DNA from: Candidatus Cloacimonadota bacterium
GTDB taxonomy: Bacteria > Cloacimonadota > Cloacimonadia > Cloacimonadales > TCS61
Assembly: GCA_030445745.1 (NCBI GenBank)
Contig: JASUTE010000005.1
Span: 68,528 to 132,527 of the forward strand
DNA length: 64,000 bases
Direction of reading: 5' to 3'
Shown here: positions 28,331-31,962 of the stretch, piece by piece
Position numbering within the stretch: the first letter of the stretch is position 1
Layout: each line of letters starts with the position of its first letter
The notes under the pieces: generated by a model
What the model saw: the letters and a program-made list of their open reading frames with translations, nothing else
Told to the model about the DNA's origin: nothing
The model's database searches: none
Position numbers and translations under genes: made by a program

Positions 28331-28426
28331 TTAGAAAAAAAACCACTCTGTCTGATAGAGTGGCTTTTGGTGCTTTTTTTTCTTATTATCATAGTATTCA
28401 TCCATATCTAAATTAATTTGAGCCAT
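28331..28426 (-). CDS. Candidate 31-residue small protein downstream of the sigma factors
   Basis: An ATG at 28426 is preceded by GAGGAG at an ideal four-base distance, and the frame runs 31 codons to TAA at 28331. The peptide starts MAQINLDMDEYYDNKKKK, acidic then basic. The terminator stem at 28343-28363 lies inside the frame, and the last residues are Phe encoded by its T-run. The ribosome site argues for translation; the terminator overlap argues against. No homologue is known to me. Confidence 0.4.
   Translation of the reverse strand: MAQINLDMDEYYDNKKKKHQKPLYQTEWFFF
28335..28363 (-). terminator. Intrinsic terminator downstream of the sigma-factor pair
   Basis: CCACTCT and AGAGTGG (28343-28349, 28357-28363) form a seven-pair stem with a seven-base loop. 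Eight T follow on the minus strand (28342-28335) and a T-rich stretch on the plus strand, so it may work both ways. The same stem recurs at 31268-31290. Confidence 0.75.
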
Positions 28427-28525
28427 TATTCTCCTCTTTATTTTGATTTTTGCTTAACCCAAGTTAAGAAGAATGAATTTTGGCTCAATTATTTTTAACC
28501 ACTTTTTGGATGTTATCTTTCTGAA

Positions 28526-29500
28526 TTATGCTTCACTTTTATCTCGGCTATATATTACTTTTATTTCCCCTTTGCCGTTTATGAATTCCATAATTTCTTC
28601 TCTTTTCATTTTTAAGGTTCCATCTTTTTTGGTTTGCATTATTATGTCTTTGATTTCTTTATCAACTTGAAATTCTAATATCTTTTGAGGTGGTTGAGGA
28701 AATTGAATTATCTTAATAGCATTTTCATTATAGATTTCAAATTTTGTGATGAAACAAGAAAAAAAACCATCTAAATTGTAGTAGTTTACATAAAGTTCAT
28801 ACGTTTTATTATCTATCAATTTTATGCTATAATTTAATATTTTTTTTATATGAATATCTGGTATTTTCGAAGGTATTTCACATTCCCGGAAATATAGCTT
28901 CATCTTTTCTAAAGAATTTGTTTCTAAGGCATTTTTGAATTTTTTAATAAAGTTAATTAAATTTTCATGCAGTTTAGCACCAACAATAGCCCTAGAAGCT
29001 ATCATACCATGTTGTTTGTTATACTCAGCTCGTATTTCCCTTTTTAAGCGATAGAGGCGTTTACGTAAAGTGGAGTAACTAATCCCCTTTTTTATAGCTA
29101 CTTGGCGAAGTTTTCTACCTTCGGCAATATATTTCTGCAAAAGTTCTTTATCAGATTCTTTTAAATCAATATTGTTTTCTTCCAAAACCTCCGAGAGTGT
29201 TTTAATCTGTTTATCCTCTAAAAAAGTTTCAGTATAGATGTTCTCTATTTTGTTAAAATCTACCGGGTTATTCAAAACATCTCTTTTCTGTTTCTTAAGC
29301 AGGTCAATAGCAGCATTCTTGGTGACTTTCTGGATCCAGCTTCTTAACTTTTCAGAATCTATCTTAGCAGAGTTTAAATAGTATTTCATATATACTAATA
29401 CAAGAACATCTTCTTGGTCTTCTTGATTAGTTAGGTATTTTTTTAGTACTGGGATTGAATATCTCTTTATTTTGGAATATAATGTTTTATCTGCCTGCAT
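28526..29500 (-). CDS. ECF-type sigma factor with C-terminal extension (copy A)
   Basis: A 324-residue RNA polymerase sigma factor of the extracytoplasmic-function type. Region 2 is at about residues 15-75 (NQEDQEDVLVLVYMKYY, WIQKVTKNAAIDLLKKQKR). Region 4 with the helix-turn-helix is at about 110-160 (KLRQVAIKKGISYSTLRKRL). Some 150 further residues follow, beginning FIKKFKNALETNSLEKMKLY, which resemble in outline the NTF2/SnoaL-like tails of ECF41-type factors; this is a tentative comparison. No anti-sigma gene is adjacent, so the tail may regulate activity. It is paralogous to copy B, 17 nt upstream, and has no clear ribosome site of its own. Confidence 0.8.
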   Translation of the reverse strand: MQADKTLYSKIKRYSIPVLKKYLTNQEDQEDVLVLVYMKYYLNSAKIDSEKLRSWIQKVTKNAAIDLLKKQKRDVLNNPVDFNKIENIYTETFLEDKQIKTLSEVLEENNIDLKESDKELLQKYIAEGRKLRQVAIKKGISYSTLRKRLYRLKREIRAEYNKQHGMIASRAIVGAKLHENLINFIKKFKNALETNSLEKMKLYFRECEIPSKIPDIHIKKILNYSIKLIDNKTYELYVNYYNLDGFFSCFITKFEIYNENAIKIIQFPQPPQKILEFQVDKEIKDIIMQTKKDGTLKMKREEIMEFINGKGEIKVIYSRDKSEA

Positions 29501-29517
29501 AATAATGGATTTTCTGG

Positions 29518-30501
29518 CTATTCTTCACTTTTATCTTGGTTATATATTTCTTTCATTTTACCTTTGCCTTTAAGGAATTCCATAATTTCTTCTCTTTTCA
29601 TTTTTAAAGTTCCATCTTTTTGGGTTTGCATTATCGTTTCAATTATTGTCTTATCAAGATTTACTTTTATTATTTTTTGTGGTGGTTTGGGAAATTCAAC
29701 TATTTTTATAGAATTTTCATTATAGATTTCAAAAATCGTGATAAAACTCGAAAAAATTCCTTCTAAATTGAGATAATTAACAAATAATTTGTATTTTTTA
29801 TTATCAAGTAGTTTAATATCATAATCTAAAATTTCTTTTATTTTGATATCTGGAATTTTGTGAGATATTTCACATTCCCGGAAATATAGCTTCATCTTTT
29901 CTAAAGAATTTGTTTCTAAAGCATTTTTGAATTTTTTAAGAAAGTTTTGCAGATTTTCATGCAGTTTGGCCCCAACAATTAGGCGAGAAGCTATAATACC
30001 CTGCTGTTTATTGTATTCTGCCCTAATATCTGCTTTTAATCGATATATCCTTTTTTTTATTGCAGCAAAACTGGTACGGCGCCGATAAGCTAATTTTTTT
30101 ATTTTAAATCCGGATTTGATATACCTTTCCAATAGCTGGCGCTCTGGTTGCGAAATAATCTTGCTATAATCTTTCAATATATCATCTAATGACTTAACTT
30201 CTTGCTTCTTTTTATCTTTAGTAAGAAAACTTTCGGTGATTATGTTTTCGAGGTCATCAAAATTGAGAGTTTTTTGGGAAATTTGGTGTTTTTTAGATTT
30301 ATTATAATCTATACTGGCATTTTTAGCAACTGTGATTATCCAATTATTCAGGTTTTCTTTTTGTAGTTTGTCTTCATGCAAGTAATATTTAATTAATACT
30401 GTTTGAGCCAGGTCTTCTCTATCTTCCTGATTGCTAACATATTTACAAATAGTTCTGTAAGCTAAATTTTTAACCTTCTGGTATAATTTTTCTTCCTGCA
30501 T
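29518..30501 (-). CDS. ECF-type sigma factor with C-terminal extension (copy B)
   Basis: A 327-residue paralogue of copy A with the same layout: region 2 (NQEDREDLAQTVLIKYY, WIITVAKNASIDYNKSK), region 4 (KIKKLAYRRRTSFAAIKKRI) and the same C-terminal domain. N-terminal halves differ a lot, especially in the DNA-reading helix. The stretch around EYNKQxG...FRECEI and the final DGTLKMKREEIMEF are nearly identical, also at DNA level. The two factors may thus read different promoters but share a regulatory tail. It is the first gene of the pair, divergent from the secreted-peptide gene at 30799. AT-rich relative to the surroundings. Confidence 0.8.
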   Translation of the reverse strand: MQEEKLYQKVKNLAYRTICKYVSNQEDREDLAQTVLIKYYLHEDKLQKENLNNWIITVAKNASIDYNKSKKHQISQKTLNFDDLENIITESFLTKDKKKQEVKSLDDILKDYSKIISQPERQLLERYIKSGFKIKKLAYRRRTSFAAIKKRIYRLKADIRAEYNKQQGIIASRLIVGAKLHENLQNFLKKFKNALETNSLEKMKLYFRECEISHKIPDIKIKEILDYDIKLLDNKKYKLFVNYLNLEGIFSSFITIFEIYNENSIKIVEFPKPPQKIIKVNLDKTIIETIMQTQKDGTLKMKREEIMEFLKGKGKMKEIYNQDKSEE

Positions 30502-30563
30502 AAAAATATTCCTATATTAAACATTGGCTAATCATTTTAAAAGCAATCACTTAGTCCACTTTT

Positions 30564-30594
30564 CGTCCCCTTTCTACAAAAATATCGTATATAA
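30564..30594 (+). promoter_or_regulatory. Candidate ECF promoter, copy 1
   Basis: CGTCCCC (30564-30570), a 15-base spacer, then CGTATATA (30586-30593). The layout is that of an ECF sigma promoter and equals copy 2 in both elements and spacer length. An AGGAGG follows at 30602-30607, but no normal start codon lies behind it, so its product may be an RNA or a decayed gene. Confidence 0.6.
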
Positions 30595-30626
30595 CAGTAG
30601 AAGGAGGAACTAAAGATAAAAAATAG

Positions 30627-30728
30627 ATTGAATTATTATCGTCAATAAATATATCGTGGCTTGGTGATAGAAAGAGGGAAATTGTGCATTTTAAGGATGC
30701 TGTAATTGTAATTATTGTAAGCAGTTAA
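30627..30728 (+). pseudogene. Possible decayed copy of the secreted small-protein gene
   Basis: Between the two ECF-type promoters one frame without a start runs 33 codons to TAA 30728. It encodes ISWLGD near its middle and a valine/isoleucine-rich end (DAVIVIIV). The intact neighbour encodes ISWEEVGD followed by CIVVIGDDVYIV. The likeness is short, so this may be chance. Confidence 0.25.
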
Positions 30729-30737
30729 CTTAGAATT

Positions 30738-30770
30738 CGTCCCCTTTTTCAGTTTTGTTCGTATATATAA
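30738..30770 (+). promoter_or_regulatory. Candidate ECF promoter, copy 2 (secreted small protein)
   Basis: CGTCCCC (30738-30744), a 15-base spacer, then CGTATATA (30760-30767), 32 nt before the ATG at 30799 with an AGGAGG between. The match to copy 1 in both boxes and exact spacing is the evidence. The obvious candidate reader is one of the two divergent sigma factors. Confidence 0.65.
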
Positions 30771-30798
30771 GTGAAAGCAAAAATATTAGGAGGCTACG

Positions 30799-30996
30799 AT
30801 GAAAAAGTTTTTATTAGTTATTTTTTTAATCAGTGTATTGACCAGTGGATTATTTGCAGTTGAATCGAATATAGATACAAGTAAATTGGAAGAGATTAGC
30901 TGGGAAGAAGTAGGAGATAATGCTGTTATATATGAAGTTGGTGATGGTTATTGTATCGTTGTAATAGGTGATGATGTTTACATTGTTTTCGAATAG
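30799..30996 (+). CDS. Small exported acidic protein (65 residues), likely sigma-factor target
   Basis: The product has a clear signal peptide (MKKFLLVIFLISVLTSGLFA), with cleavage expected after about residue 20. This leaves a mature acidic peptide of some 45 residues with one Cys (GYCIVVIGDD). AGGAGG lies seven bases before the ATG. It is driven by the second ECF-type promoter. No known family recognised. Role could be a signal, stress or envelope peptide; this is inference from context. Confidence 0.65.
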   Translation: MKKFLLVIFLISVLTSGLFAVESNIDTSKLEEISWEEVGDNAVIYEVGDGYCIVVIGDDVYIVFE

Positions 30997-31006
30997 AGGA
31001 TAAATC

Positions 31007-31231
31007 ATGAAAGTTCGCGATGAGATCCGGAAAATGCTCTACGAAATGGAATTGGAGAATCCTGGAATATTGGATAGATATTCGGAAAAGGATATAAACA
31101 GGATACCGGAGATAAAAGCGATACTTGAACAGAAAAAATTCAAAAAAATAATAAATTTCAAAGTAGTTAGAAAAAATAAAAATGAACAATTGGAGTCTCT
31201 TAAGTCAATAAAGTTTAATTTTTTAATATAA
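31007..31231 (+). CDS. Small basic protein of unknown function (74 residues)
   Basis: A 74-residue cytoplasmic-looking protein that starts MKVRDEIRKMLYEME and turns Lys-rich in the second half. GAGGA lies six bases before the ATG, and it follows the secreted small protein by ten bases, so they form one transcript ended by the terminator at 31268. I recognise no family. Confidence 0.55.
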   Translation: MKVRDEIRKMLYEMELENPGILDRYSEKDINRIPEIKAILEQKKFKKIINFKVVRKNKNEQLESLKSIKFNFLI

Positions 31232-31267
31232 TTTCTCTCTAAATTCCTCTCTAAAACTAATAAAGTG

Positions 31268-31299
31268 GCCACTCTTGCCCGCAGAGTGGCTCTTTTTTT
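31268..31299 (+). terminator. Intrinsic terminator after the small-protein genes
   Basis: GCCACTCT and AGAGTGGC (31268-31275, 31283-31290) form an eight-pair stem with a seven-base loop, then TCTTTTTTTTT. The stem core equals that of the terminator at 28343, so the sigma/peptide block is bracketed by twin stems. Confidence 0.85.
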
Positions 31300-31351
31300 T
31301 TGACATAATTGCCAACTTAAAGAAAATAACAAAAAAGATTGGAGTTAGAAA

Positions 31352-31765: not shown

Positions 31766-31842
31766 TGGTGTGCCCGAGAGGATTCGAACCCCCGACACCC
31801 AGAACCGGAATCTGGTGCTCTATCCAGCTGAGCTACGGGCAC
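31766..31842 (-). tRNA. tRNA-Arg (anticodon CCG)
   Basis: On the minus strand GTGCCCG at the 5' end pairs perfectly with CGGGCAC at the 3' end, followed by A and an encoded CCA. The anticodon arm is CCAGA-TTCCGGT-TCTGG, giving anticodon CCG for the CGG codon. The T-arm GGGTTCGAATCC loop is normal. The 77-base gene has a complete cloverleaf. Confidence 0.95.
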
Positions 31843-31962
31843 ACATAATGCCAAACTTATAACCTCCATTTTTTATGCAACTATTTTTTAATAACTTCTC
31901 AACTTGTTAATCTGATATTGACATATAAATTAGAGTTCCTTTTTTTGTTTAAAAGGTGGAAA

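Follow-up and report, generated by a model that had tools for sequence, protein, structure and literature searches.

In a 64,000-nucleotide stretch of a Candidatus Cloacimonadota genome (contig JASUTE010000005.1, positions 68,528–132,527; hereafter the window), two adjacent genes for extracytoplasmic function (ECF) sigma factors, designated sigA and sigB, lie divergent from a gene for a 65-amino-acid exported acidic protein. We consider it probable that these proteins represent an ECF41-like group in which a sigma factor regulated by its own tail controls an operon for an exported protein. The evidence that supports this reading consists of the linkage of the two types of genes across the phylum, the match and rarity of their promoters, the predicted NTF2-like fold of the sigma C-terminal domain, the recombination of sigma modules, and the precedent of ECF41. 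Gene regulation has hardly been studied in this phylum, in which the sigma family described here is widespread.

Structural analysis of the sigma factors

Both sigma genes are on the minus strand: sigA (324 amino acids) at 28,526–29,500 and sigB (327 amino acids) at 29,518–30,501. The encoded proteins are paralogs that share 57% identity, and they face away from the open reading frames (ORFs) of 65 and 74 amino acids, as the initial annotation had described. Both sigma factors pass the cut-off of Pfam Sigma70_r2 (PF04542), sigB with 39.9 bits against a cut-off of 24, and sigB lies at the cut-off (42.9 bits) of TIGR02937, the ECF whole-family model. Among 34 members of the family, 28 match PF04542 region 2 with E values up to 0.1 and all match TIGR02937; the Pfam model of region 4 falls below its cut-off in the window sigmas.

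Residues 169–283 of sigB (29,653–29,997, minus strand) comprise a predicted NTF2-like domain of the SnoaL type, followed by a helical tail (residues 284–327; 29,521–29,652) that contains a G...EE(I/L)..(I/L) motif conserved in family alignments and is modeled with low confidence. The AlphaFold2 model of sigB, built from 19 sequences, has a mean predicted local distance difference test (pLDDT) score of 70, with values of 72–86 per ten-residue block over residues 181–270. In this model the C-terminal domain begins with a helix and continues as a five-strand antiparallel sheet, which VIA-align matches to many NTF2-like chains with Z of 8–10 at 2.6–3.5 Å over ~95 residues. The predicted fold is that of the extensions found in ECF41 and ECF56 sigma factors, which lends support to the initial proposal that the sigma factors are controlled by their own tails. 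Assignment of the domain to a known sequence family was rejected, there being no sequence match in Pfam or the PDB.

In comparing the two paralogs, we noticed that core and domain differ in their degree of divergence. Identity at third codon positions ranges from 0.24 to 0.40 (saturated) in the core and from 0.52 to 0.88 over residues 180–304, a pattern by which the NTF2-like domain of sigA (28,661–29,005, minus strand) is nearly homogenized with that of sigB. The reverse is observed in a sigma pair of another genome of the phylum (G068, L074:4280–6483), where the core reaches 0.72–0.88 and the domain 0.20–0.44. Identity breaks near the junction of region 4 and the domain in both pairs, which suggests from sequence that core and domain were recombined or converted as separate modules. 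The window sigmas, with diverged cores and homogenized domains, may thus be two promoter-readers that probably answer one shared signal, whereas the G068 pair may be one promoter-reader with two inputs.

The initial annotation had also stated that no anti-sigma gene is present. Indeed, reading of the ORFs listed for the block and directly beside it (without an anti-sigma profile) disclosed no anti-sigma-like gene, and the same kind of reading disclosed no adjacent membrane anti-sigma gene among the ORFs that flank the sigma genes of relatives.

A search with sigB across 124 genomes of the phylum identified relatives of ~330 amino acids in 42 genomes, and a profile of the C-terminal domain yielded 108 matches in 72. 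All named relatives belong to Candidatus Cloacimonadota, including Tenebribacter and Celaenobacter. A scan of GTDB species contigs with two short peptide patterns recovered 17 loci, all from Cloacimonadota; the patterns missed known members, so the family may also occur elsewhere. A more divergent sigma family, designated f2, is ~365 amino acids in length and is encoded on the same strand as, and upstream of, a shorter-tailed small partner. We found no published description of the sigma family, and literature on Cloacimonadota or Cloacimonetes together with sigma factors provided nothing relevant. The family could already exist within some numbered ECF group.

Conservation of the small exported protein

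The 65-amino-acid protein is encoded on the plus strand at 30,799–30,996. Its signal peptide comprises an n-region, a hydrophobic stretch, and a cleavage-like site between SGLFA and VE, and its mature part contains 12 acidic residues and 1 basic residue in 45. The predicted fold, which is of low confidence, consists of the signal helix and a three-strand beta meander. Placement in a known family was rejected after nothing credible emerged from Pfam or the PDB. In relatives, the sigma gene adjoins a gene for an exported protein of 61–100 amino acids that ends in Y.I(I/V).(I/V)DG..Y(I/V)(I/V), and the profile of this family recognizes the window protein with an E value of 6e-17.

Applied to the genomes of the phylum, the small-protein profile gave 38 strong matches, 31 of which lie within 2 kb of a match to the sigma domain (27 divergent and 4 on the same strand). 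The remaining seven comprise three at contig ends (G069:C407, G066:C182, and G094:C76), three next to sigma fragments that are truncated or partial (G063:C8, G096:C59, and G094:C120), and one located 3.3 kb from a sigma gene. The small gene of the initial annotation is thus conserved beside sigma genes in relatives. Except at contig ends, every strong copy that the profile found was linked to a sigma gene, although its sensitivity for distant unlinked copies is limited because it was seeded from sigma-adjacent loci.

Several relatives encode leaderless twins of the small protein. In one clade, an ORF of 23–24 amino acids without a signal peptide (for example MKKLYEDQKYFIIIIDGEIYIIKK) lies downstream of the small gene; another clade contains leaderless versions of 31–36 amino acids, two of which have their own promoter copies upstream. 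These ORFs carry the same predicted hairpin as the small protein. The ratio of nonsynonymous to synonymous substitution rates (dN/dS) is 0.03–0.18 for the leaderless twins and 0.14–0.29 for the small gene in four of five pairwise comparisons, the fifth pair being too similar to tell; these ratios indicate that both types of genes are under purifying selection in relatives. A gene for a CheY-like regulator often comes next after the small gene or its twins in relatives; none was found in the window. A mini ORF was likewise not detectable in the window, where the stretch between the two promoters described below performed no better than shuffled sequence. The idea that a degenerate remnant of the small gene occupies this stretch (30,594–30,737) was rejected: its nucleotide alignment score was 24 against a shuffled mean of 29.3, and its best profile match had an E value of 0.03. 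The corresponding stretch in the closest relative, G085, contains no conserved ORF.

Other features of the small-gene loci were observed in individual clades. In several of them a stable hairpin encloses the ribosome-binding site upstream of the small gene (z −6.9 at L088:4990–5045 and −3.0 at L058:2290–2340; also in L060, L065, L069, L072, and L085), which suggests translational control or an attenuator in those clades; the leader in the window is unstructured. At L056:3732–3768 of G085, base pairing is possible between the −35 element GTCCCCTCTG and the ribosome-binding site CAGGAGGGGAC in the same transcript region, probably by coincidence. One genome (G041, L127:1–8649) contains two copies of the sigma and small genes ~7.5 kb apart that encode identical 69-amino-acid small proteins and flank a gene for a 1552-amino-acid secreted protein. 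A recurrent order (L058:2700–5401, L085:5286–7941, and L122:661–3242) places the small exported protein before an exported protein of 109–131 amino acids with an acidic, proline-containing end, followed by a protein of 720–750 amino acids with a type IX-like sorting end.

Promoters and candidate targets

Two exact copies of TTCGTCCCC-N16-GTATATA separate the sigma genes from the small-protein gene, as the initial annotation had noticed. The distal promoter spans 30,562–30,593 and the proximal promoter 30,736–30,767, with motif starts at 30,564 and 30,738; both are on the plus strand, and the gapped form occurred 0 times in 100 shuffles of the window. Relatives have the proximal promoter at the same position, and G085 contains two tandem CGTCCCC sites like those of the window.

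Pattern and profile searches were extended to the whole genome of 2.04 Mb, which contains only three exact sites and none at one or two mismatches; matches at three mismatches are background (5 versus 16 for the reversed control). The motif is therefore rare. The initial annotation had named two refuting outcomes, a motif common throughout the genome and a small gene not conserved beside sigma genes in relatives; both were examined, and neither speaks against it. The third exact site lies outside the block, ~50 bp upstream of the gene for a 238-amino-acid lipoprotein. This site, together with extra sites that precede type IX cargo in relatives, contradicts the initial description of the block as a self-contained unit. 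The C-terminus of the lipoprotein (L200:1221–1937) is glycine-rich and hydrophobic (GGAAGGGAGWITGPIVGAAASYVYDYF), with a bacteriocin-like look, and the protein has one clear partial relative, in G081.

Alignment of relatives on the −35 element revealed (C/T)GTC(A/C)C(A/C), exactly 16 nucleotides, and then GATA, GACT, CATA, GTAT, or GTCT with TATA-rich sequence. The combination of core, 16-nucleotide spacer, and −10 element is present in 17 of 47 regions upstream of small genes versus 0 of 259 control regions (p 8e-16, a statistic that includes related loci rather than independent events). A spacer of 16 nucleotides forms a clear peak among these upstream regions, and the promoter as a rule lies 50–60 nucleotides before the gene start. 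The type of −35 element, which is CGTCCCC in the window clade and (C/T)GTCACA with the same spacer in another, tracks the sigma tree, with 4 changes compared to 14.4 when labels were shuffled.

An extended pattern, GTGGTGTYGTCACA-N-TATA, had no match in reversed controls across the 124 genomes. Of its seven sites away from sigma genes, five lie upstream of genes for proteins with type IX sorting ends. Because the relatives tested contain many such proteins, from 96 to at least 150 among the matches listed, the probability of five or more in seven was calculated with an assumed base rate of 10% (~2e-4).

Comparison with known systems

The Cloacimonadota family resembles ECF41 sigma factors such as Ecf41Bli and SigJ of M. 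tuberculosis in having a fused SnoaL/NTF2-like C-terminal domain (here at the level of fold), no anti-sigma gene, and a target gene next to the sigma gene, here a probable one (PMC3426412, PMC8999054). ECF41 sigma factors activate the neighboring gene from the promoter TGTCACA-n16-CGTC (PMC3426412); the Cloacimonadota promoter (C/T)GTC(A/C)C(A/C)-n16 has a similar −35 core and the same spacer, but a different −10 element. WLPEP, the motif in the linker between σ2 and σ4 of ECF41, has no counterpart in the Cloacimonadota family, as neither WLPE nor LPEP occurs in 34 members. Moreover, the ECF41 partner is a decarboxylase, oxidoreductase, or epimerase, whereas the Cloacimonadota partner is a small exported protein; Pfam finds no match to these enzymes in the conserved neighbor. 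Because the linker motif and the neighboring gene family both fail to match, we describe the group as ECF41-like rather than as ECF41, from which it also differs in its extra tail and in the exported and type IX cargo among its candidate targets. The initial annotation knew of no described system with this exact make-up; the architecture is, however, not wholly without parallel, since the fused domain and the adjacent, here probable, target are shared with ECF41 and the −35 core and 16-nucleotide spacer resemble those of ECF41 (PMC3426412).

Two other systems are comparable in part. SigG1-RsfG of Streptomyces (ECF56) likewise combines a sigma core and SnoaL_2 extension with a partner-protein gene next door; however, RsfG is a co-transcribed anti-sigma protein, while the Cloacimonadota partner carries a signal peptide and its gene is in most cases divergent (PMC7730460). 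The PorXY-SigP/PorA pathway of Porphyromonas gingivalis likewise ties an ECF sigma factor (compared by description) to type IX secretion and a CheY-like regulator, and includes a small exported protein, PorA, that influences the sigma pathway (PMC7712824). What SigP controls is the secretion machinery, not the cargo, and its activation runs via a kinase and PorX (PMC7712824). A type IX sorting domain is present in PorA; Pfam detected none in 18 of the Cloacimonadota small proteins. New features of the Cloacimonadota unit are the exported partner family, the leaderless twins, the extra promoters before type IX cargo in relatives, and the mosaicism of core and domain.

A proposed model for regulation by the sigma C-terminal domain

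We propose that the family is restricted to the phylum and follows the plan of ECF41: regions 2 and 4 come first, the NTF2-like domain and a short tail come after them, and an anti-sigma gene is lacking. The NTF2-like domain would set sigma activity by sensing something cytoplasmic. The active sigma would recognize (C/T)GTC(A/C)C(A/C)-N16-(G/C)(A/T)..TAT, as conservation implies, and switch on the adjacent, usually divergent, gene for the small exported protein; the window sigmas would do so from TTCGTCCCC-type promoters. Additional targets would include the lipoprotein in the window genome and large type IX secretion cargo in some relatives. Several observations weigh against this model. Pfam does not recognize the C-terminal domain by sequence, and the mean pLDDT of the sigB model is only 70. 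Many f2 sigmas have no detected small protein, and the −35 elements of other sigma clades are different and less certain. The related loci in the promoter statistics and the seeding of the small-protein profile, both noted above, have to be counted on the same side.

We regard it as very improbable that the motif binds an activator or repressor instead, its proximity to the sigma genes being mere linkage. In one clade the −35 part (GTGGTGTCGTCACAC) is longer and almost palindromic, as such a site might be; however, the fixed 16-nucleotide spacer to an AT-rich −10 element, the general position 50–60 nucleotides before the gene start, the covariation with the sigma tree, and the resemblance to the ECF41 −35 element (PMC3426412) all argue for a sigma promoter. 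Also improbable is a role for the small protein in signaling between cells, in which the sigma would sense the secreted protein once it is re-imported or by way of another receptor. Its short length, export, variability among lineages, and presence as one copy per sigma would fit this role, but what is conserved in the family is a folded unit of three strands and not a short processed peptide, and the neighboring ORFs included none recognizable as an exporter, protease, or importer.

Two further explanations concern the input of the domain. NTF2-like domains often bind small ligands, and the domain could serve the sigma as a sensor for some unrelated small molecule, the exported protein being only an end product with a surface, envelope, or antagonistic function. 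This explanation is plausible, if short of probable, and agrees with ECF41, whose neighboring gene is a target only and has no signaling role (PMC3426412); it leaves unexplained the leaderless twins and the near-obligatory pairing of sigma and small protein despite varied cargo. The other explanation is feedback, in which the NTF2-like domain would be bound and tuned by the not yet exported small protein or by the leaderless mini twin, so that the sigma would report on the efficiency of export. We hold this possibility to be rather doubtful. The partner almost always adjoins the sigma gene, the twins share the hairpin, follow the small gene or their own promoter copies, and have dN/dS well below 1, the candidate targets are exported proteins, and in evolution the domain behaves as a module of its own; on the other hand, the window contains no detectable mini ORF and the small proteins are only ~30% identical. 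Such feedback extends the model of a tail-controlled sigma and does not contradict it. It is tempting to speculate, though on balance unlikely, that the NTF2-like domain takes the exported mini-protein and its leaderless cytoplasmic twins as ligands, and that the sigma thereby gauges export from within the cell as a secretion monitor, free of an anti-sigma factor, that matches exported and type IX output to secretion capacity. Clues to where the input of the domain may be sought come from the leaderless twins and from the exchange of modules between sigma paralogs. Since this family provides a precisely defined promoter, a regulon whose members can be counted, and a partner protein that goes with the sigma, it opens to direct test what ECF sigma factors sense through their fused NTF2/SnoaL domains.

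Other features of the locus

An ORF of 74 amino acids follows the small-protein gene (31,007–31,231, plus strand) and is possibly co-transcribed with it. The initial annotation was right about its presence but not about its role as a companion: its best match in the 124 genomes had an E value of 0.006, none was a credible relative, and its membership in the system was rejected. As judged from sequence conservation, the unit consists of the sigma and exported-protein genes only, and the 74-amino-acid ORF is an orphan.

Terminators with the same stem bracket the block, as had been noted at the outset. The stem CCACTCT...AGAGTGG occurs at only two places in the window, 28,343–28,363 and 31,269–31,289. 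The left copy is a predicted bidirectional terminator that also serves the sigma genes on the minus strand (z −4.8), and the right copy lies within a plus-strand terminator at 31,267–31,291, 3′ of the 74-amino-acid ORF (z −2.7). Just beyond the block, reading of the sequence revealed a tRNA-like gene on the minus strand at 31,774–31,847, directly after queF.

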